Positions 1 to 19,815 of a DNA stretch of 64,000 nucleotides are shown here, in pieces (position 1 is the stretch's first letter; every line of letters begins with the position of its first letter). A program made the position numbers and the translations under genes. Source of the DNA: Acetobacter malorum (lineage in GTDB: Bacteria > Pseudomonadota > Alphaproteobacteria > Acetobacterales > Acetobacteraceae); NCBI RefSeq assembly GCF_002153605.1, contig NZ_JOPG01000018.1, positions 62,001 to 126,000 of the forward strand, given 5' to 3'. The notes beneath the pieces are model-generated. The model saw only the letters and a list, made by a program, of their open reading frames with translations. It did no database searches and was not told the origin of the DNA.

Positions 1-842
1 TCCTGAAGAGGTGGTGCGGTTACTGTCTGACAGGTGACACACGAGAGCACGCCCTGTTATTTGGCTATGGTCCAGGCGGAAACGGGAAAAGTGTATTCCT
101 CAACACGCTATCCCGTATCATGGGCGATTATGCGACCGTAGCAGCCATGGACACGTTTGTAGCTTCACACGGTGATCGGCATTCGACGGATCTGGCCATG
201 CTGCGTGGTGCCAGGCTTGTCACGGCCTCAGAAACGGAGGAAGGCCGGACGTGGGCTGAGGCGCGCATCAAGCAGATGACCGGTGGAGACCCCATTACAG
301 CACGCTTCATGAGGCAGGATAATTTTACTTTCCAGCCCCAGTTCAAGCTGACCATCGTTGGCAATCACAAGCCGGTGCTCAAGAACGTGGATGAGGCAGC
401 ACGCCGCCGGTTCAATATCGTGCCGTTCATTCACAAGCCCAAAAGCCCGGATAAGGATCTGGAGAGCAAGCTACAGGATGAATGGCCAGGCATTATGCAA
501 TGGATGATCGAGGGCTGTCTTGAATGGCAGCGTGAAGGAATGCCGCGTCCTACTGTCGTGCTGGAAGCCACAGCGGAATATTTCGAGGCGCAGGATACGT
601 TTGGGCAGTGGTTGTCTGAACGGTGCATTCGTGACCCCGGCCTTGAAACGAAACCGAACATGTTGCTCAAGGATTTTCAGGAATGGTGCCGGAACAACGG
701 GGAGCCTGAGAGCGACAATAAGCGCATGCGGGGGATGTTGGAGAAGACAAACGGTATTCGCTACGTCAAAACACGCGGCACAAGAGCCGTGAGAGGTATT
801 GGTCTCAAACCTAACGAAAGCCCCCACCAATGGCGAGACTGA
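1..842 (+). CDS. P4/D5-type phage primase-helicase, C-terminal part (5' partial)
   Basis: The reading frame is open from the first bases of the window, so the start lies upstream. The visible part is the superfamily 3 helicase half of a phage/plasmid primase (D5 or P4 alpha type), which unwinds and primes DNA for replication of the element. A Walker A motif GPGGNGKS is encoded at 69-92. It is followed by an acidic Walker B-like stretch (VTASETEEG) and by the SF3 motif C sensor region (VGNHKP...RRRFNIVPF). The C-terminus resembles the winged-helix tail of this family. It is followed by a G-rich inverted repeat and phage packaging genes, so it is probably the replication gene of the integrated element. 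A plasmid-like role is also possible. Confidence 0.85.
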   Translation, partial: LKRWCGYCLTGDTREHALLFGYGPGGNGKSVFLNTLSRIMGDYATVAAMDTFVASHGDRHSTDLAMLRGARLVTASETEEGRTWAEARIKQMTGGDPITARFMRQDNFTFQPQFKLTIVGNHKPVLKNVDEAARRRFNIVPFIHKPKSPDKDLESKLQDEWPGIMQWMIEGCLEWQREGMPRPTVVLEATAEYFEAQDTFGQWLSERCIRDPGLETKPNMLLKDFQEWCRNNGEPESDNKRMRGMLEKTNGIRYVKTRGTRAVRGIGLKPNESPHQWRD

Positions 843-848
843 CAAAAA

Positions 849-938
849 GGGGGCAGGGTGGGGCAGGGTTATTTGATTTGGCGCCATACGCGCGCGTACA
901 TGAGGAATAACGGATTTACCTATCCCCACCCTGCCCCC
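849..938. repeat. 15-bp perfect inverted repeat with G-quadruplex motif
   Basis: GGGGGCAGGGTGGGG at 849-863 is the exact reverse complement of 924-938, with about 60 bases between the arms. The left arm continues to 868 and contains four G-runs within 20 bases, a G-quadruplex-type motif; the right arm carries C-runs, so the potential quadruplex lies on the opposite strand there. It follows the stop of the primase gene directly. Its role could be termination or a replication origin/cis-acting site for the primase. This is inference from position. Confidence 0.6.
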
Positions 939-975
939 CTGATGTGTATGATCCTTGAAAAGGAGTAAAACCATC

Positions 976-1194
976 ATGACTGACGAATTTCTAATAAACG
1001 GAATACCCAGAGATAGCGCGAAAAACGCATGGTATTGGTTTAAGCATGTGAGCCAACTGGATGATCCAGCAGCGCTACCTGTTCCCTATCATTGGTATGA
1101 CGGTAAATGGTCCAATGGGCTTGTTGGTGATGAAATCGAGAAGGGTAATTACAAGTGTTATGGACCTTGTGAATATCCGGCGCCGTGGGGGTAA
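976..1194 (+). CDS. small hypothetical protein (72 aa) in phage element
   Basis: No family is recognised. The start at 976 is chosen because AAAAGGAG lies 10-17 bases upstream; an in-frame ATG at 955 precedes this Shine-Dalgarno sequence and is less likely. The product is short, aromatic-rich (several Trp and Tyr) and acidic, with two Cys-Pro-type positions near its end (KCYGPCEYPAPWG). It sits between the primase and the serine recombinase gene and has no membrane segment. It may be a small accessory protein of the element. Confidence 0.5.
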   Translation: MTDEFLINGIPRDSAKNAWYWFKHVSQLDDPAALPVPYHWYDGKWSNGLVGDEIEKGNYKCYGPCEYPAPWG

Positions 1195-1271
1195 TAAGAC
1201 GCTCCCGAAGAAATCCCACCTGATGGCCAGCCTTGTTCCGCGACGCCAGCACTGAGTTTCCCGCATGAGAA

Positions 1272-1396
1272 GTCCTAAAAAGCAAGCCTTTCAGGACACA
1301 GAAAACGTGGGACAAAATAACGGAAAGTCCTTGTCCTAAAAATTACCATTTGACTTTTGAGACATAGACGGCGTAACTTCTAAGAGGTTTTAGGAC
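1272..1396. promoter_or_regulatory. repeated GTCCTAAAA motifs upstream of the serine recombinase
   Basis: GTCCTAAAA occurs at 1272-1280 and 1333-1341, and its inverted copy TTTTAGGAC at 1388-1396 directly abuts the recombinase start codon. Partial copies (CAGGACAC near 1292, GGGACAAAA near 1310) lie between. Small serine recombinases commonly bind repeated subsites next to their own gene (res sites) and repress themselves, so this is a candidate res site or operator. The assignment is inferred. Confidence 0.4.
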
Positions 1397-1975
1397 ATGA
1401 GGAACGTCATGAAGATCGGATATGCCCGCGTCTCAACAGTGGATCAGGATGCCGGACTGGAAGCCCAGATACGCGATCTAAAAGCCGCAGGGTGTGAGAA
1501 GATATTTTCTGAGAAAGTGAGTGGCACAGACAGCCAGAGACCTGAGCTACTGGAGGCCTTGGGATATATCCGACCCGGCGATGTGCTGGTTGCGACAAAG
1601 CCCGACCGTCTGGCCCGCTCTACTGCTGACCTTTTGGGCTATGTGCAGACACTCCGGGGCAAGCAGTGCGGTCTTATCGTGCTCTCCATGAATGGCACCA
1701 CGCTAGACACCACCAGCCCCACATCAAAGCTCATGCTGACTATGCTGGCTGCTGTAGCTGAATTTGAGCGTGACCTAATGCTGGAACGCCAACGGGAAGG
1801 GATTGCTAAAGCCAAGGCAGAAGGCCGCCCAATGGGCCGTCCTCGTACGGTGCTTTCAAAGACCGACACCATCCGCAAATTGAGACAAAAAGGCCTCTCT
1901 GCAGCCGCTATTGCCAAGCAGCTCGGTATCGCCAGATCTGGGGTCTATCGAGCACTAGAAACAGAAAAAGCATAA
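1397..1975 (+). CDS. resolvase/invertase-type serine recombinase
   Basis: This 192-residue protein has the length of the small resolvase/invertase family, which cuts and rejoins DNA at paired sites through a phosphoserine link. The N-terminal motif YARVST holds the catalytic serine (residue 13 from this start, or 9 from the ATG at 1409). The arginine-rich active-site helix follows (TKPDRLARS), then the long E helix (AAVAEFERDLMLERQREGI). The last 45 residues form a helix-turn-helix (GLSAAAIAKQLGIARSGVYRAL). It is not a large serine integrase, so it probably resolves multimers or inverts a segment rather than inserting the element. Repeats just upstream may be its target. The start could be 1397 or 1409. 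Confidence 0.9.
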   Translation: MRNVMKIGYARVSTVDQDAGLEAQIRDLKAAGCEKIFSEKVSGTDSQRPELLEALGYIRPGDVLVATKPDRLARSTADLLGYVQTLRGKQCGLIVLSMNGTTLDTTSPTSKLMLTMLAAVAEFERDLMLERQREGIAKAKAEGRPMGRPRTVLSKTDTIRKLRQKGLSAAAIAKQLGIARSGVYRALETEKA

Positions 1976-2115
1976 AGCTAATCTGTAACAATTCGTGATG
2001 TGGTCATTATACAGCGTCTCTGTTTGTTCCCCACTGTGTCTGACTGTTTCTGTATCTATGGAATAACCCTTTCATATCAAGGGTGTTTCCAATTTTAGTA
2101 TTTGTAGTGCAAAAA

Positions 2116-2139
2116 ATACCCCTGATATAAAGGGGGTAT
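2116..2139 (+). promoter_or_regulatory. hairpin enclosing the ribosome binding site of the next gene
   Basis: ATACCCC (2116-2122) can pair with GGGGTAT (2133-2139). The stem would bury the Shine-Dalgarno G-run and the first two bases of the start codon at 2138. This could limit translation of the small terminase gene until the RNA is melted. The pairing is seen in the sequence; the control is inferred. Confidence 0.35.
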
Positions 2140-2491
2140 GAAAAAGATAGGCCCCTATTCGAGACCAGATAGTCTCAAGAAACTCGACGGTAGGAGCAAG
2201 GAAGCACGACTGCTCAAAGACGTGCGCTCAGCACTCGTCGATCATGTAGGCGGCGCACCATCCATCACACAGCTTGCTTTGATTGATCGGGCCGCTTGGC
2301 TTACCCTCCACATGACCATAATGGACAGCCACATGCTGGCTGGTGGAGCCCCTGCCGAACGGGATGCCCGCCAGTATCTGGCATGGGCCAATACGCTCAC
2401 ACGCACCATGCGCTCTCTCGGTCTGGATAAGGCACCGGCCGTCGCCCGCGGGCTTGATGCTCTGCTGGCAGAAAGGAGAGTGCGGGCATGA
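2138..2491 (+). CDS. probable phage terminase small subunit
   Basis: This 117-residue mostly helical protein is not recognised by sequence alone. It overlaps the start of the large terminase gene by an ATGA junction (2488-2491), the usual place and size for a small terminase subunit, which recognises phage DNA for packaging. The N-terminal half has a basic segment (RSKEARLLKDVRSALVDHVG) followed by a possible DNA-binding helical region (SITQLALIDRAAWL). The C-terminal part (ARQYLAWANTLTRTMRSLGL) resembles the oligomerising helices of small terminases. The function is inferred from position. Confidence 0.55.
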   Translation: MKKIGPYSRPDSLKKLDGRSKEARLLKDVRSALVDHVGGAPSITQLALIDRAAWLTLHMTIMDSHMLAGGAPAERDARQYLAWANTLTRTMRSLGLDKAPAVARGLDALLAERRVRA

Positions 2492-3900
2492 GCATGACCG
2501 TTCTGCAAGCCATGCACGACCCCGCTCTCTTCGGGGCTGAGTTCGATGCGCCGACCTGGACTGCATGGGAAGCCTTCCTTGCTGCCCTGCTGGGTGAGGA
2601 AATGACGGATGAACAGAAATCTCTCTGCCATCTACACACTGGCCGCACAGACCTTCCTCTGGAGGCGTTCAGACGGGCGGCTCTCATCTGTGGCCGCCGC
2701 GCCGGTAAAAGCCGCGTGCTGGCTCTGTTGGGCACCTGTCTGGCTACTCTGAAAGATTACCGCCCTTACCTGTCCGCTGGGGAGGTGGCGACGGTGGGGA
2801 TTATTGCTGCCGACCGCAAGCAGGCGCGCACCATCTTTCGGTATGTCCGTGGCCTGATCTCCCTCGTTCCCGAAATGGAAGCCGAGGTTACGCGGGAGAC
2901 GGATGAAGTCATAGAGATGGCAGGCCGCCGTGTTGTGATTGAAATCGGCACTGCCAGCTTCCGTGCCACCCGTGGCTATACCTATGCCGCTGTGCTCTGC
3001 GATGAAATTGCCTTCTGGCGGGATGACAGCAGCGCCAACCCTGATGAAGAGATCCTGCGAGCCCTGCGGCCGGGTCTGGCCACCATTCCCGGTTCCATGC
3101 TGCTGCTGGCATCAAGCCCCTATGCCCGGCGCGGGGTGCTCTGGAAAACCTACAAGCGCTATTACGGGCAGGATGGAGCCACCACACTGGTGTGGAAAGC
3201 AGCCACCCGTGAGATGAACCCTGAATTTGATGAACAGGAAGAACGGGAAGCCTACGAAGAAGATCCCGCTGCCGCCGCTGCAGAGTATGGTGCAGAGTTC
3301 CGTAGCGACATTGCATCTTTCGTCGCCCCGGAGGTGGTTGAAGCCTGCACAGTGCAAGGCCGGCATGAACTGCCACACGATAGCCGACACCGCTACGTTG
3401 CCTTTGTTGACCCGTCTGGCGGCTCATCTGACAGCATGACGCTGGCTATTGCTCATCATGAGGATGAGTGCGCCATTCTTGATCTGGTGCGTGAAAAGAA
3501 AGCACCATTCAGCCCAGAAAACACCGTAGTGGAATTCTGCGAGACGCTGAAAGCCTATAGCATCACCTCCGTCACTGGCGACCGTTACGGCGGCGAGTGG
3601 CCGCGCGAGCAGTTCCGCAAGAACGGCGTGCAATACAATCTTTCTGAAAAGGTGCGGTCTGATCTTTATCGCGACCTTCTGCCTGTTCTCAATTCTGGAA
3701 AAGTTGAGTTGTTGGATATTCCTGTGCTGTCTCGCCAACTTTCAGGCTTGGAACGCAGGACCGCGCGCGGCGGCAAAGACAGCATCGACCATGCACCGGG
3801 AGGACACGACGACGTTGCAAACGCAGTGGCAGGTGTCGTCGCCCTGACATCTAAAAAGCAACTCCCTCGCTTTTCTCGTGAATTTTTGGAAAAAATCTGA
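2488..3900 (+). CDS. phage terminase large subunit
   Basis: This 470-residue protein is the ATP-driven motor and nuclease that packages phage DNA into proheads. The ATPase half shows a Walker A motif GRRAGKS (residues 69-75) and a Walker B motif in VLCDEIAFW (about 169-177). The coupling motif LLLASSPY is near 206-212. The nuclease half shows the RNase H-like acidic residues: FVDPSGG (Asp308), TGDRYGG (Asp365) and HDDVANA (Asp441/442). All key motifs appear intact. It is coupled to the upstream small-subunit candidate and downstream to a DUF2213 gene by a 1-base overlap, so the three were probably co-transcribed. No portal gene follows, which is unusual for a complete phage. Confidence 0.9.
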
Positions 3901-4676
3901 TGACACATTTCATCTCCATGGCTTTTGACCAATCTGTAAGGGAGACGTCACCAGAAGGTCACCTGCGCATCCATCGCTGCATTTTGAGTGCTGCAACTGT
4001 ATCACCTTATTTGGGCAAAGAGATTGTTGATGGCGCGCGGCTGGGGTTTCGTCCTGACGTTCTCTATCAGCTCTACCGTGACCCACAGGCTCTCGCAAAA
4101 GCGGCTGATACAATGAATGGCAAGCCCATTCTAATGCAGCACCGCGCCGTTTCTTCGACGGACCACCCGGCAGAAATTACGGTAGGTGCAGTTTCAGATG
4201 TCAGGTTTGAGAATCCTAATCTGATTGGTGCCCTAACTATCTGGGACCGTTCTGCCATCTCAGCGATTGAAAATGGTTCGCAGCGTGGCGTCTCCGCCGG
4301 GTATCGATACCGTGTTCAACCTGGCTCCGGGGTTACCAATGGCCAGAGATATGACGGCCGGATGGTCGATATCTCCTTCAATCATCTCGCTCTTGTTGCA
4401 GAACCGCGTGTCGCAACTGCGATCATTGGCGATGCTCTCCCGAAAGGAATGAAATTGATAAACCAAGACCACCTGCAAAACAGGAGCGTTGAGCGTTCAC
4501 TTGAAAAACGCGTTTCGCAAATTCTGGACGAACTAGAGACTATCCCGCAGGAGGATGTCTCTTCAACTGCTATGGACAGCCTTATGGAGCAGAGGTTTGC
4601 CGAGCGGCAAGAGCGAGAACGCAAAGCCTTTTCTGAACAGTTCCCCGAAGTTTCACGTATTCAGGTAAAAGGATGA
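3900..4676 (+). CDS. DUF2213 phage protein (putative head maturation protease)
   Basis: The sequence from [27 protein letters not shown] through the segment [10 protein letters not shown]-like [15 protein letters not shown] matches the DUF2213 family of phage head genes, often annotated as putative prohead proteases. The core covers about residues 7-185. The last 70 residues are helical and charged and could be a scaffold-like tail. It begins one base inside the terminase stop codon; an in-frame ATG at 3918 fits the usual family N-terminus equally well. Position after the large terminase agrees with a head-assembly role. Catalytic residues cannot be assigned with confidence. Confidence 0.75.
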
Positions 4677-5365
4677 TGAAAATGAAAACATCTCCAATTC
4701 GCAAAAATCTTGCAGAAACTATTGCAAAAATCAAAGAGACAAAAGGTAGCCTTGCCAAAGTCGACACCGCTTACTGGGATACAGCGGCAACACGGGACAG
4801 GCATGAAAAAGCCCTTGAAGCAGCAAAAGAGAAAGTCCAGGAAGCCCATGCTCAAAAAGCATCTTTGATGGCCGACCGGCTCTTGGGACAGAAAGTGACA
4901 GATGCTGATCCCGTCGATGCTGCAGAAAGGGTGGAACGAGAAGCTCAGCTTTCTCTGCGCGAAACCGAAGCTGTCATTCATGAACTCAAACGCCGGAAGG
5001 CATACCTAGAAGAAGAAAGAGAACGGCTTACATTCAAAAGAAGCAATCTCATCAAAGAGGTGGTTTCCGAAAGCGCTGTTGCCATCCATCTGCACCGACA
5101 GGTTGCAGACGCGGCAAAAACTCTCCTTGATGCAGCCAAGAGCCTGAGGCTCCTACGCGACCGTGGATGCCGGGTTCCTTATCCTGAAGAGCACAAACCC
5201 TCAGGCACTACAGTCGATACATTAGAGAGGATGGATACATTCCCCTCTTCATGGGCAGAAAACCGGATCCCCGGCGCCCTTCAGCTTGCCGCTCAGTGGG
5301 GAAGCGCTCTGTCTGCTCTTGAAGAGGATGCGCTTTATCCTCTGCCGGGTGAAGGAAAAGCCTGA
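4673..5365 (+). CDS. coiled-coil phage protein of unknown function
   Basis: This 230-residue protein has no recognised family. Residues 10-140 are strongly helical and heptad-like, rich in Glu, Lys, Arg and Ala (for example [19 protein letters not shown]), which predicts a long coiled coil. The C-terminal 60 residues are less ordered. The gene overlaps the DUF2213 stop by an ATGATGA junction and has AAAAGG upstream. Its place after a protease-like gene would suit a scaffolding protein, which is often helical, but this is a guess from position. A TGATG junction couples it to a very short downstream ORF. Confidence 0.6.
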
Positions 5366-5562: not shown

Positions 5563-5638
5563 TGGTGGAGCCAATCGGGATCGAACCGACGACCTCCTGA
5601 ATGCCATTCAGGCGCTCTCCCAACTGAGCTATGGCCCC
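5563..5638 (-). tRNA. tRNA-Ala (anticodon GGC)
   Basis: Read on the minus strand the gene begins GGGGCCATAGCTCAG and ends with an encoded CCA. The anticodon loop ATGGCAT gives anticodon GGC. The acceptor stem contains the G3-U70 pair that marks alanine tRNAs. D-arm, anticodon arm and T-arm (GGTTCGATCC) are complete. Its 3' end faces the phage-like element, the usual orientation when a tRNA 3' end is the integration site. Confidence 0.97.
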
Positions 5639-5722: not shown

Positions 5723-6355
5723 TTACGAAAACAGCACGCCCATCTCCCTCAACGCCTCCAGCAGCGGCAAAAGGGGCAGGCCGAGAATGGCTGTCTGATC
5801 CCCCTCCATGCGGGCAAACAGATGCAGGCCCGGCCCTTCAATCCGATAAGCGCCAACGGAATAGAGGCACTCGTCGCCTTCCTCCGCCAGATAGGCCTCC
5901 AGAAACGCATCAGAAAAGAGCCGCATGGTCAGCTGGGGTTCAGAAACATGCTGCCAGAGCACCTGCCCATTCCGGCACACCACGACAGCTGTATGCAGGG
6001 TATGCGTTTGCCCCCTTAAAGAAAGAAGCTGCTGCCGGGCCGCTGTGAGGTCCGCAGGTTTGTCATACCAGTCCCCCTTACAGGAGAGCATCTGGTCCGC
6101 ACCAATTACAAACGCATCGGCACAGGAGACAGAAAGCGCTTTGGCTTCTGCCAGACGGAGGGCAACGGTCTCCGGTGGTGCGCCCTCCGCACGGCCTGCT
6201 TTTTTAAGAGGCTCTTCATCGACTGAGGATGAGAGGACAGAAAACGTCAGTCCGGCATTTTCCAGAAGCTTACGACGAATGGCTGAACCACTCGCCAGAA
6301 CCAGTTTATGGCGCGAGTCCTGTATTGGAGTCGGTTTGAGTACTAAATCTGACAC
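5723..6355 (-). CDS. maf: Maf-family nucleoside triphosphate pyrophosphatase
   Basis: Maf proteins hydrolyse non-canonical or modified nucleoside triphosphates to monophosphates, keeping them out of nucleic acids. The 210-residue product shows the family N-terminus LVLASGSAIRRKLLENAGL (substrate loop with Ser and Arg), the catalytic segment VIGADQML with its acidic residue, and KPADLTAARQQLLSLRGQTHTLHTAV. The C-terminal part (YSVGAYRIEGPG) is also typical. The first about 15 residues precede the core. Its 5' end faces the proposed origin, with hemE divergent on the other side, an arrangement known near alphaproteobacterial origins. It is family-level certain; whether it is the dTTP/UTP or m7GTP subtype is not resolved. 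Confidence 0.9.
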   Translation of the reverse strand: MSDLVLKPTPIQDSRHKLVLASGSAIRRKLLENAGLTFSVLSSSVDEEPLKKAGRAEGAPPETVALRLAEAKALSVSCADAFVIGADQMLSCKGDWYDKPADLTAARQQLLSLRGQTHTLHTAVVVCRNGQVLWQHVSEPQLTMRLFSDAFLEAYLAEEGDECLYSVGAYRIEGPGLHLFARMEGDQTAILGLPLLPLLEALREMGVLFS

Positions 6356-6723
6356 GAAAGCGAGTCTCTTTCAGGTACTAAGCAATAAGGGGGCTGTGAG
6401 TACTCTCCTGAGTACCGGGGTACATGTGGATTGTACGGCGATCATGACAAGCACGTACCGAGTACCGTGCACAACTCACAAGAGTCATGAACCGGTGAGT
6501 TGTACACAGCCTCATTTGGGTACAATCTGGATAACTCTAAAAACCTTAGCATTTCCAACGGTCTGTAATCTGTACACAGTGTGGGAAAGATGGGGTACAT
6601 TTTTGGAATGGTGGGTACCCCGTCATCCACAGTACCCTTTAACCTCTAAATCCATTTCTATTCTTTTATTTTATATTTTAGGACCGTGGACAGGTTGGAC
6701 AAAGACGTGCAGGACTTCAGGCC
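6356..6723. other. putative chromosomal replication origin (oriC) between maf and hemE
   Basis: This 368-base gap has no credible gene. Fourteen GTAC tetranucleotides lie between 6340 and 6635 (the first inside the start of maf), many within GAGTAC or GTACC, where about one would be expected. Three sites are one base from a DnaA box: TTGTACACA (6500-6508, against TTATNCACA), TCTGGATAA (6526-6534) and TCATCCACA (6623-6631). Four GAGTC sites, possible CcrM methylation targets, occur at 6315, 6328, 6362 and 6482. The hemE end (about 6637-6690) is AT-rich and could be the unwinding element. In Caulobacter and Rickettsia the origin adjoins hemE, and parABS lies about 10 kb away here. The origin call is inference; the repeats are seen. 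Confidence 0.65.
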
Positions 6724-7806
6724 ATGACCAGCAAGACAGATATCCCCCCCTCCAAACGCCTGCTCAGAACATTGAACGGTGAGGCTGTCTGGCCACCGCC
6801 AATGTGGCTGATGCGACAGGCAGGACGTTTCCTTCCCGAATTCCGGGCCATGCGTGCCAGAGCAGATTTTCTGACACGCTGCATGACACCCGATATCGCG
6901 ACAGAGCTGACCTTGCAGCCCATCCGTCGCTTTGGAATGGATGGCGCCATTCTGTTCTCCGATATTCTCATTCTGCCCTGGGCTATGGGGCAGTCGCTTG
7001 AGTTTGTTGAAGGCACAGGCCCGGTTCTGGGTGCCATCCGGAGTGAAGCAGATCTCGCAAAACTTGATCCCGAACGTATTGCAGAGGTGACAGCCCCTGT
7101 TCTGGAAACATTGTCCCGCCTGAATGGGATCCTGAACGGGCCAGACGATATTGGCGTTGCAAAAGGTGGCGCCACAACACTGCTCGGCTTTACCGGCTCT
7201 CCCTTCACTGTCGCCTGTTACATGGTTGAAGGCGGTGGTTCTCGGGAATTCGCGATTACGCGCACCATGGCGTTTTCCGAACCCGCTTTGTTTGACCGGC
7301 TTATGGCGCTGCTGACGGAGCAGACTGCGACCTATCTGTGTGCTCAGATTGAAGCCGGCGCTGAAGCCGTCATGCTGTTTGATTCCTGGGCGGGCCTGCT
7401 CTCACCAGCAGAATTCCGCAAACATGTCATCGCACCAACGCGGCAGATCGTTCAGACCATTAAAAGCCGTTACCCCTCCGTGCGCGTGATCGGTTTCCCG
7501 CGTCTTGGTGGCGTAATGGTTGCTGAATATGCGCGTGAAACCGGCGTGGATGTTCTTGCACTGGATACCGGAGCAGATTTTGCAACGGTGCGAAGCATGG
7601 TGCCGGAGCATGTTGCTCTGCAGGGTAATCTGGACCCGGTTGCTGTGCTGGCTGGTGGTGACGCCATGCGGCGAGAAGCGCTGGCCGTGCGGAATGCTGG
7701 CCGTGGTCGTGCACATGTTTTCAATCTGGGTCATGGCGTTCTGCCGCAAACACCCGTTGAGCATGTGGCGGATCTGGTCAAAACAGTTCGGGAGACAGAA
7801 TTATGA
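6724..7806 (+). CDS. hemE: uroporphyrinogen decarboxylase
   Basis: HemE removes four carboxyl groups from uroporphyrinogen III to give coproporphyrinogen III in haem synthesis, in the cytoplasm. The 360-residue product has the usual length. It carries the family signature PPMWLMRQAGRFLPEFR near residues 23-40 with substrate-binding arginines, the segment ILFSDILILPWAMG (the Asp that binds pyrrole nitrogens), GFTGSPFTVACYMVEGG, and the C-terminal FNLGHGVLPQTPVEHV. It is followed by a HAD phosphatase gene with a 4-base overlap and then hemJ, so the three form an operon. Its upstream region is the proposed origin, so its promoter probably overlaps origin elements. Confidence 0.97.
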   Translation: MTSKTDIPPSKRLLRTLNGEAVWPPPMWLMRQAGRFLPEFRAMRARADFLTRCMTPDIATELTLQPIRRFGMDGAILFSDILILPWAMGQSLEFVEGTGPVLGAIRSEADLAKLDPERIAEVTAPVLETLSRLNGILNGPDDIGVAKGGATTLLGFTGSPFTVACYMVEGGGSREFAITRTMAFSEPALFDRLMALLTEQTATYLCAQIEAGAEAVMLFDSWAGLLSPAEFRKHVIAPTRQIVQTIKSRYPSVRVIGFPRLGGVMVAEYARETGVDVLALDTGADFATVRSMVPEHVALQGNLDPVAVLAGGDAMRREALAVRNAGRGRAHVFNLGHGVLPQTPVEHVADLVKTVRETEL

Positions 7807-16012: not shown

Positions 16013-17335
16013 GTGGCGTATCAGGGTGAAGAGACGATTTTTGCATTATCCACGGGGCTTGGGCGGGCCGCTATTGCGGTGATGCGGGTGAGTGGTGCCG
16101 GGAGTGAGGCGCTGCTGAAGCGTCTGATCGGCAAACTCCCCGGTGCACGGCGCGCAGCCTTGCGGCGTGTGTGGCAGGATGCAGCCACGCAGGAGAATTT
16201 GCTGGATGAAGCTCTGGTTCTCTGGTTTCCCGGTCCGCACAGCTACACGGGCGAGGATGGGTTTGAACTCCATCTGCATGCAGGCCCCGCAGTTATCAAG
16301 GCGGTAGCCGGGGCATTGGTAGAAGGTGGCGCGCGCCCGGCAGAAGCCGGAGAGTTTACGCGCCGCGCCTTTATGAACGGCAGGATGGATCTGGTTGAAG
16401 CTGAAGGCATTTCAGATCTGGTGGAAGCGGAAACGGAAAGCCAGCGCAAACTGGCTCTGGCGCAGACAGATGGTGCCCTCAGCCGCCTGTATCAGAACTG
16501 GGCGGACCGGCTAAAACGTGTTCTGGCGCATCAGGAAGCGCTGATCGATTTCCCGGATGAAGATTTGCCACCTGAAGTTGAGCAGGGGCTTCTGGATGAA
16601 ATTCATAGCCTGATTGCCGCGATGCAGACGCATATTCAGGAAGGAGATCGTGGGGAGCGTATTCGGCGCGGGGTGGTGTTTGCCATTACCGGCCCCCCCA
16701 ATGCAGGCAAGTCCAGCCTTTTAAACTGGCTGGCGGATCGGGATGCGGCTATTGTTTCCCCCATGGCAGGCACGACGCGGGATGCCATTGAAATCAGCGG
16801 TATTCTGGCGGGTGTCCGTGTGACGTTTGTGGATACAGCAGGCCTGCGTGAGACCGAGGACGCCATTGAGGCTGAGGGCGTAAAGCGGGCATTGTTTCAC
16901 GTGAAACAGGCCGACTGTGTGTTGCAGATGTTTGCCGCAGGAGATGAACCGCAGGAGGTGTTCCCTGCCAGCGTGCTGATAGGGAACAAGAGGGATCTTG
17001 GGGCTGTGCCGCACGCCGTGCAGGGGCACCCTGTTATGGCGGTCAGCCTTGAAACAGGGCAGGGGCTGGACCAGCTTAAAGCCCTGTTGGAGCAGAAAGT
17101 GGAAGCGCTGACAGCATCGTCTGCGTCTGGAGCACCTCTCCTGACCCGTGCGCGCCATAAGGCTGGGGTAAAGGAAGCCTGTGCGTGTCTGGAGGCCGCT
17201 TTGCAGCAGGAGTGGCCGGAAATGCGTGGGGAAGAATTACGGCTCGCTATGCGGGCCTTAGGGCGGCTGACAGGGCATGTTGGGGTGGAAGACCTGCTGG
17301 ATGCTGTGTTTGGCCAGTTTTGTATCGGAAAGTAA
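16013..17335 (+). CDS. mnmE: tRNA modification GTPase MnmE
   Basis: MnmE works with MnmG to add the 5-carboxymethylaminomethyl group to the wobble uridine of several tRNAs. The start at GTG 16013 is preferred because AGGAAGGA lies nine bases upstream and the product (440 aa) then begins a few residues before the conserved TIFALSTGLGRAAIAVMRVSG. ATG at 15992 and a longer frame from 15917 are possible. The N-terminal folate-binding domain ends near 120, then helices, then the GTPase domain with G1 GPPNAGKSSLLN, G2 TTRD, G3 DTAG and G4 NKRD. The C-terminus ends FCIGK, the conserved catalytic CxGK. A perfect parS site lies inside the gene at 16893-16908. mnmG follows 18 bases later. Confidence 0.95.
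   Translation: MAYQGEETIFALSTGLGRAAIAVMRVSGAGSEALLKRLIGKLPGARRAALRRVWQDAATQENLLDEALVLWFPGPHSYTGEDGFELHLHAGPAVIKAVAGALVEGGARPAEAGEFTRRAFMNGRMDLVEAEGISDLVEAETESQRKLALAQTDGALSRLYQNWADRLKRVLAHQEALIDFPDEDLPPEVEQGLLDEIHSLIAAMQTHIQEGDRGERIRRGVVFAITGPPNAGKSSLLNWLADRDAAIVSPMAGTTRDAIEISGILAGVRVTFVDTAGLRETEDAIEAEGVKRALFHVKQADCVLQMFAAGDEPQEVFPASVLIGNKRDLGAVPHAVQGHPVMAVSLETGQGLDQLKALLEQKVEALTASSASGAPLLTRARHKAGVKEACACLEAALQQEWPEMRGEELRLAMRALGRLTGHVGVEDLLDAVFGQFCIGK
16893..16908. other. parS centromere site (perfect), inside mnmE
   Basis: TGTTTCACGTGAAACA is the exact 16-bp palindromic consensus bound by chromosomal ParB. It lies within the GTPase domain coding region of mnmE, about 3.7 kb upstream of parB. 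Confidence 0.95.
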
Positions 17336-19222: not shown

Positions 19223-19815
19223 TCGACCTGCCCGAAACGCTGCATGTTTCACGTGAAACACAGGAGCGGCTGGAAGCGTTTGTCGCCCTGCTGGAAAAAT
19301 GGAACCCGAGGATCAATCTGGTCTCCTCGCGGGATATTGCCAGCGTGTGGGAACGCCATGTGCTGGATAGCCTACAGCTTGCCCCTTTGGTCGCAGGCCA
19401 TGAGCGGTTTATCGATATGGGGTCGGGCGGGGGTTTCCCAGGCGTGATTGTTGCAATCGCAACGGGCGTGCCGGGAACGCTGATTGAGTCTGACCAGCGT
19501 AAAGCGGCCTTCCTGCGCGAAGCTGCCCGTGTCACACAGGCCCCGCTCAAGGTGCTGGCCGAGCGGATCGAACAGGCGGATGTTACGCCGGCTCCTGTCG
19601 TCACGGCGCGGGCGCTGGCCTCTCTGAGCAAGCTGCTGGACTGGACGGCTCCCTTGCTGGAAAAAGAGGGGAAAGCATTTTTCCTCAAAGGTCAGCAGGC
19701 GGATGAAGAGTTGACCGAGGCCCGACGCAACTGGCACATGAATGTGCGTATCCACCGCAGCATAACAAGCCATGATGGTGTGATTCTTGAAGTGAGCAAT
19801 CTTGAACGTGTCTAA
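19219..19815 (+). CDS. rsmG: 16S rRNA (guanine527-N7)-methyltransferase RsmG
   Basis: RsmG methylates G527 of 16S rRNA using S-adenosylmethionine. The 198-residue product shows the family segments [19 protein letters not shown]-like ([16 protein letters not shown]), HVLDSLQL, and the SAM-binding loop [18 protein letters not shown]. It overlaps the mnmG stop (ATGA) and the start of parA by 14 bases. A perfect parS site lies at codons about 9-14. Loss of RsmG is known to give low-level streptomycin resistance in other bacteria. Confidence 0.95.
19245..19260. other. parS centromere site (perfect), inside rsmG
   Basis: TGTTTCACGTGAAACA again matches the ParB-binding consensus exactly. It encodes part of the N-terminus VSRET of RsmG, so the coding sequence tolerates the site. 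It is 1.4 kb before parB. Confidence 0.95.

Follow-up and report, generated by a model that had tools for sequence, protein, structure and literature searches.

The control of bacterial replication origins by methylation is well understood mainly for the Dam/SeqA system. In Escherichia coli and Vibrio, the chromosomal origin (oriC) is strongly enriched in the Dam palindrome GATC, and an orphan methyltransferase is kept as a core gene (PMC13076061, PMC2865523); in V. cholerae oriII, the sites of the initiator RctB contain this methylation word (PMC2865523). The origins of Burkholderia cenocepacia are described as methylation-rich, with the words CACAG and GTWWAC and two methyltransferases (PMC7364216), and GTAC is itself a known methyltransferase target, GTm6AC being made by M.PabI and M.CviQI (PMC4357717). 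By position, the origins of the Caulobacter/Rickettsia type lie beside hemE, with DnaA, CtrA and IHF as their named features and, in Caulobacter, a COG1806 gene on the other side (PMC1914354). Here we describe an array of GTAC words in the gap between a maf-like gene and hemE of Acetobacter malorum, found within a 64,000-nt stretch of DNA (‘the window’, to which positions refer unless a contig is named) that is part of contig C28 of a draft assembly (3.09 Mb, 111 contigs). An original prediction, made from the letters of the window, had proposed that this gap is oriC and that its GTAC clusters could form a lineage-specific element outside the standard models for DnaA, CtrA and IHF; we find that the gap is, almost certainly, the chromosomal origin and that the GTAC lattice it carries is very probably a functional element of it.

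The maf-hemE gap and its GTAC array

The gap (6356..6723) is bounded on its left by the maf-like gene (5723..6355, minus strand; Pfam Maf, 1.1e-46; given as the longest open reading frame (ORF), the true start possibly lying further in) and on its right by hemE (6724..7806, plus strand; Pfam URO-D, 1.2e-110). The protein encoded by this hemE shares 99% identity with its counterparts in A. malorum and Acetobacter cerevisiae. Fourteen GTAC words fall within 296 bp, with starts from 6340 to 6632 and the last ending by 6635; 13 of them lie inside the gap proper and one, at 6340, inside the longest maf ORF. The remainder of the window holds 49 (0.77 per kb), such that 0.23 would be expected per 296 bp (Poisson P ~1e-20); the runner-up 296-bp stretch contains three, and dinucleotide shuffles of positions 6330-6690 (n=2000) give a mean of 2.5 and a maximum of 9. 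Across the whole 3.09-Mb assembly, the pattern GTAC-N0-30-GTAC-N0-30-GTAC has 20 forward matches, seven of them within the gap. The 14 predicted sites are all present, at a density unmatched elsewhere in the window and not repeated at many loci of the genome. The sole other site with several overlapping triplet matches (four; C103:57482-57571 in G000) is repeat-like, with ACCGGTA words.

The gap is identified as oriC because GC skew switches at or near it, in C28 as well as in a same-genus relative, and because of the relocated origins described below. In C28, skew to the left of the gap is mostly negative and that to its right mostly positive; cumulative skew is lowest at ~60 kb and the gap at 68.4 kb, ~8 kb further right, with phage-type genes between. 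In the relative (G144; largest contig 2.86 Mb, skew from 20 slices), hemE is at 2.487 Mb and the switch falls between 2.484 and 2.550 Mb; the opposite switch lies near 0.9-1.2 Mb. We thus see no sign in either contig of a skew minimum placed well away from the gap. Of the features that mark a hemE-type alphaproteobacterial origin, adjacency to hemE and the skew switch are both present; several perfect DnaA boxes are not, there being none in the gap and three with one mismatch.

Indeed, no perfect DnaA box TTATNCACA occurs anywhere in the 64-kb window. The three weak DnaA-like boxes, all at the positions predicted, are TTGTACACA (6500..6508, plus strand; one mismatch to TTATNCACA, with the GTAC at 6502 inside it), TTATCCAGA (6526..6534, minus strand; one mismatch, with similar words in aligned Acetobacter origins) and TCATCCACA (6623..6631, plus strand; one mismatch, lying 3' of the GTAC at 6615), a place at which several further origins from the family read TTATCCACAG. 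Allowing up to one mismatch, GTTGTACACAG is found upstream of hemE in 70 of 80 named loci. To the right of the array, positions 6637..6690 are AT-rich as foreseen (28% GC against 57% for the window), a property shared by the relatives shown; this stretch is likely to be the unwinding element. Four GANTC sites of CcrM type, which the prediction had listed as GAGTC, start at 6315, 6328, 6362 and 6482 (6315..6486), and the A. malorum genome has both a CcrM-like and a GcrA-like gene.

Conservation and relocation of the GTAC lattice

For 80 named hemE loci, we counted GTAC over the 700 bp preceding the gene, where base composition alone would give ~2-3. The count is 12-17 in 64 of the loci, 6-9 in six and 0-3 in ten; the 64 cover Acetobacter, Gluconacetobacter, Komagataeibacter, Novacetimonas, Gluconobacter, Neokomagataea, Asaia, Acidomonas, Brytella and Tanticharoenia. 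In genus g36, two members at 31 and 34% GC in the fetched stretch retain 11 and 10 GTAC. Two Acetobacter metagenome-assembled genomes from goat and sheep abomasum (L021, L022; 34% GC upstream of hemE) are intermediate, their origins carrying eight GTAC together with three perfect DnaA boxes in 480 bp.

Aligning the gap across related genomes (44 origins) reveals nine GTAC columns common to 33-44 rows, with a tenth present in 18; the nine are separated by 8, 13, 22 (21), 7, 40 (41, 39), 70 (71), 23 and 20 bp. The A. malorum lattice (6412..6618; starts 6412, 6420, 6433, 6455, 6462, 6502, 6572, 6595 and 6615) fits this frame exactly, at 8-13-22-7-40-70-23-20 bp, the remaining sites of the whole array (6340..6635) starting at 6340, 6375, 6400, 6520 and 6632. 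A further 136 GTACs in the aligned cores occupy 34 lineage-specific columns, with no more than 0.14 bit at any position of their flanks, and GTAC totals 530 over the 44 cores against 106 for CCGG, the next palindromic 4-mer. With almost no consensus around the lineage-specific sites and so large a difference in count, the 4-bp word GTAC itself looks like the selected unit, set atop a rigid frame; as judged by the alignment, the array consists of nine GTACs in a lattice of almost constant spacing, to which extra ones are added in varying number. Rows are not independent, since the named loci and the other genomes share species, and the 44-row alignment includes at least one species twice (L071, G034). 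The proposal of a lineage-specific element outside the DnaA/CtrA/IHF models is thus strongly supported, as a conserved origin element, by the 64 of 80 loci and the 44-origin alignment; in the open-licence literature we found no description of a GTAC array at the origin of any acetic acid bacterium, nor of a GTAC methylome in this group.

The sequence around one site raises the question of an SlmA-like nucleoid-occlusion site. The SlmA site is GTGAGTACTCAC, and one stretch of the array reads GTGAGTACTCTC (6396-6407); the GAGTACTC flanks are, however, missing at most lattice sites, and SlmA sites are dispersed along the chromosome instead of being concentrated in oriC; although no search aimed at an SlmA homologue was made, this is a very improbable account of the array.

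Nine of the ten low-GTAC named hemE loci belong to Bombella, Parasaccharibacter, Saccharibacter or strain B3987. A GTAC-triplet search of eight genomes from two of these genera (Bombella, Saccharibacter) located the same array, its neighbouring words unchanged, ~20-26 kb from hemE in at least seven of the eight, going by the matches listed (the eighth is G104). In two of these genomes skew was followed in 4-kb bins: in G281 it switches at the array (~56 kb; L287, G281:C1:55932-56131) and not at hemE (77 kb), and in G294 likewise at the array (~228 kb; L294, G294:C1:228163-228370) and not at hemE (202 kb). With the origin 21-25 kb from hemE, the rule of locating alphaproteobacterial origins by hemE fails in both. 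The array moves with the origin and therefore belongs to it rather than to either hemE or maf; the origin was not found on plasmids. A promoter element of hemE or maf, or an accident of composition, would be suggested by nothing beyond the position of the array, and is opposed by the Poisson estimate given above, by conservation over most of the clade and by the relocated origins, which speak against a promoter in particular; we consider the chance of either to be negligible.

Two perfect parS sites lie 10-13 kb from the gap, one inside the mnmE ORF (16893..16908) and the other at 19245..19260. To the left of oriC, positions 120-5365 hold phage-type genes (primase/helicase-like, invertase/resolvase, terminase large subunit, head maturation protease), adjoined by a tRNA-Ala (5563-5638); these genes may be a prophage, or what is left of one, beside the origin.

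Loss of the array, a candidate methyltransferase and a proposed gate

One genome placed inside the GTAC clade has no array. The hemE gap of G061 (genome 2.0 Mb; L281, G061:C1:948170-950088) contains no GTAC but 14 perfect TTATCCACA boxes, clustered in ~270 bp (948575-948843); within the stretch examined, the cumulative skew minimum lies at this cluster, the curve staying flat for the following 15 kb. Only two triplet matches occur in G061, one at 538 kb and one at 808 kb; nor does it match a lattice-core pattern to which G281, G049 and G215 conform. In a hemE tree, G061 sits beside Neokomagataea (support 92/85 for the pair and 100/99 for the enclosing 12-row group), on a long branch that leaves its exact placement unsure; a topology that unites the remaining 23 acetic acid rows to the exclusion of G061 is rejected (p-AU of 0.006, for a group named after the tree had been seen). 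Loss of CcrM/GcrA was considered as a cause and dismissed, G061 retaining a GcrA-type gene and a strong PF01555 gene that is presumably CcrM.

Perfect DnaA boxes occur in 5 of 92 origins with at least five GTAC against 22 of 55 with fewer. These 147 rows, like the 76 used further below, omit ten whose origin lies elsewhere (nine hemE gaps of Bombella, Parasaccharibacter, Saccharibacter and B3987, plus G090) and do not include the hemE gap of G030 or G205 (a contig end); the relocated origins of G281 and G294 are added. This distribution, together with the 14 boxes and zero GTAC of G061, could be taken to mean that DnaA itself reads the GTAC sites, with TTGTACACA and related words serving as the DnaA boxes of the clade and the remainder as weak DnaA sites. 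Lattice site 6502 does lie in a word that differs from TTATNCACA by one mismatch, and many relatives have another word of this kind. Against this, sites such as GAGTACC, GGGTACCCC and GGGGTACATT are unlike DnaA boxes, and the recognition helix of DnaA domain IV, RDHTTVMHA, is identical in 29 of 29 genomes with and without the array (the rows having been located by that motif). We therefore regard a DnaA reading of the array as improbable, and with the helix unchanged a DnaA of altered specificity was discarded. With the helix constant, the change lies in the DNA and probably in another protein, and GTAC probably has a reader of its own, distinct from DnaA. At the 29 dnaA loci (L191-L219), we found no cluster of at least five GTAC in 300 bp.

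A candidate for the protein that marks GTAC is a beta-class DNA methyltransferase encoded in A. malorum at C63:82041-82820 (281-aa ORF; PF01555 at 3.5e-43, 148.6 bits, cut-off 26.7). All 29 genomes searched have PF01555 genes, and a second one, for a protein of ~280 aa, is conserved in most. The strongest PF01555 gene of A. malorum scores 634.5 over the whole CcrM model, below the cut-off of 830 yet clearly CcrM-like, while the candidate reaches 76.5 bits. In 11 aligned orthologues of the candidate, the TSPPY catalytic and DPFxGxG S-adenosylmethionine-binding motifs are invariant. It is present in 136 of 297 family genomes (E of 1e-30 or better) and kept even in those of 1.9-2.0 Mb; in a class-wide draw of 387 genomes there were five matches at E 1e-50, all within the family. 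The A. malorum gene lies between Tim44 and a di-haem cytochrome c peroxidase; SecB and Smr are also close by, and none of the five neighbours tested (these four and a histidine phosphatase) is a restriction partner.

The fold matches of the candidate, its nearest solved relatives, include both N6-adenine (CcrM, M.BceJIV) and N4-cytosine (PvuII, Adineta) enzymes and the modified base is not fixed by them; the structure model itself (mean predicted local distance difference test score of 69, with stretches 124-149 and 169-214 below 50) is too poor to inform on specificity. In a basal relative (G098; L311, G098:C36:34000-45700), the gene is ~7 kb from oriC, in the run Tim44-MltA-methyltransferase-(LUD/CCG-domain genes)-Smr-LysE-maf-PF03618 gene-hemE, where the PF03618 gene is what we take to be the former DUF299, COG1806 gene; by contig coordinates it is also less than 10 kb from hemE in G062, G009 and G124. 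G144 has a second copy, 58% identical (L308:4846-6562; G144:C1, ~2003345-2005061), adjoining a convergent 193-aa ORF with no convincing family and a phage integrase; this is possibly a mobile modification gene or a restriction-modification pair.

Among 76 origins of known enzyme status (‘negative’ meaning outside the 136 family-genome matches), at least five GTAC are found in 22 of 40 enzyme-positive and in none of 36 enzyme-negative, G061 included; taking hemE gaps only, the counts are 20 of 40 and 0 of 36 (G205 excluded as too short). G061 thus lacks array and enzyme jointly. From this co-occurrence we infer that the candidate is specific for GTAC, and the possibility of a modified motif raised by the original prediction gains a concrete candidate enzyme.

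How might such an enzyme act? In the scheme that we propose, the orphan methyltransferase would methylate GTAC in oriC, so that the sites, including that in the weak DnaA-like box TTGTACACA, would be fully methylated before firing and hemimethylated after it; the hemimethylated state might then alter the assembly or occupancy of the initiator complex, or be read by a putative reader protein, limiting initiation to once per cycle in the manner of a Dam/SeqA gate working on another word with another enzyme. The rigid lattice, the missing strong DnaA boxes and the orphan enzyme kept as a core gene would all suit the requirements of such a gate. We give an even chance to gating of the origin by GTAC methylation through the C63 enzyme. 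The wider form of the proposal we hold more tentatively, as falling somewhat short of even: that this is a second, undescribed kind of methylation-gated origin, where a near-fixed lattice, marked by an orphan enzyme, substitutes for strong DnaA boxes, and where a novel protein that reads (hemi)methylated GTAC licenses or sequesters the origin, the lineage that lost the enzyme having rebuilt its origin from 14 perfect DnaA boxes.

Several observations weigh against methylation gating. The enzyme does not suffice for the array, because 18 of 40 enzyme-positive origins have fewer than five GTAC and, in genus g68, the count is 3-4 GTAC in two genomes without the enzyme against one GTAC in a genome that has it; enzyme-negative G097, too, has three. 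Individual enzyme status covers 22 of the 92 high-GTAC rows. The association is confounded by ancestry, a single nested joint absence, that of long-branched G061, carrying much of the weight; an order that fits the data, subject to the same shared ancestry, has the enzyme first and the lattice growing later in the acetous lineage. Homologues of the candidate, at 49-54% identity, sit on two Paracoccus plasmids. No nuclease partner is recognised adjacent to either, one having a GIY-YIG protein a few genes off and the other a 259-aa ORF without a Pfam match downstream. In a 1.7-Mb Acetobacter (G180; L315, G180:C50:11500-14500), the match is flagged with one in-frame stop, perhaps through decay or an insertion; its catalytic and S-adenosylmethionine-binding motifs share one frame.

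Nor does under-representation of GTAC outside the origin follow the enzyme cleanly: observed/expected is 0.52 in A. malorum, 0.50 in G144, 0.54 in Komagataeibacter, 0.73 in Gluconobacter, 0.92 in Bombella and 0.95 in G061, and in hemE coding sequences 0.59 with the enzyme and 0.69 without. Genome-wide avoidance as a fingerprint of the enzyme was accordingly set aside. A relative of SeqA was found in none of 24 genomes, with E. coli positive as control; any reader would therefore be new.

The strict spacing, finally, could equally be explained by a plain DNA-binding protein. This is the main rival: a dedicated repressor, bridging or initiation factor that binds unmodified GTAC-centred palindromes and assembles into a nucleoprotein lattice over oriC, with methylation uninvolved. 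Nine near-invariant spacings in 44 origins, with locus-specific conserved flanks, do resemble protein-protein geometry, and the enzyme is present at the 18 low-GTAC origins already mentioned. Its lineage-specific sites, however, would consist of GTAC alone (flanks of at most 0.14 bit), which is very short for an ordinary regulator, and no candidate protein is known, none having been sought systematically; on balance we think this rather unlikely, though well ahead of a role for DnaA.

Comparison with known systems

If true, methylation gating through GTAC would add an independent alphaproteobacterial case beside CcrM/GcrA, implying that such gates evolve repeatedly, and G061 would offer a natural loss in which to study the rewiring of an origin. 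The array also predicts oriC in Acetobacter, Gluconobacter, Komagataeibacter and Bombella, including where the hemE rule misplaces the origin.

Enzymes acting on GTAC include AfaI of Acidiphilium. M.PabI, M.CviQI and HpyAXII share the GTAC target, and are set beside our candidate by description rather than by sequence comparison; M.PabI and HpyAXII are tied to restriction, and the accessible text of PMC4357717 describes no link to a replication origin. The B. cenocepacia system is linked to ours by M.BceJIV, which is among the nearest solved structures of the candidate; the system differs in using CACAG and GTWWAC rather than GTAC, and no fixed lattice is described in the accessible portion of PMC7364216. 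As in V. cholerae oriII, the putative methylation word lies within an initiator-type site, one DnaA-like box of the window containing GTAC, whereas initiator, word and enzyme are all different.

The likeness to Dam/SeqA is one of outline. In A. malorum a short palindrome is enriched in oriC and an orphan methyltransferase is found in the genome, so that both hallmarks are present; unlike Dam/SeqA, the word is GTAC, the enzyme is of the beta class (PF01555), none of the 24 genomes has SeqA and the spacing is nearly fixed throughout the clade. The resemblance is put forward as a proposed mode of working shared by unrelated systems, and membership of the methylation-gated class as a possibility.

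Set beside the origins of Caulobacter and Rickettsia, that of A. malorum shares adjacency to hemE, DnaA-like boxes, an AT-rich stretch and GANTC sites, and in G098 the side away from hemE is taken up by a PF03618 gene and maf, matching the place of COG1806 in Caulobacter (PMC1914354). It departs from them in its dense, near-fixed GTAC lattice, which is not among the features named in the accessible part of that paper, and in that perfect DnaA boxes are usually absent from the acetic acid bacterial origins examined. In short, the A. malorum origin belongs by position to the Caulobacter/Rickettsia class, and its internal grammar is new.
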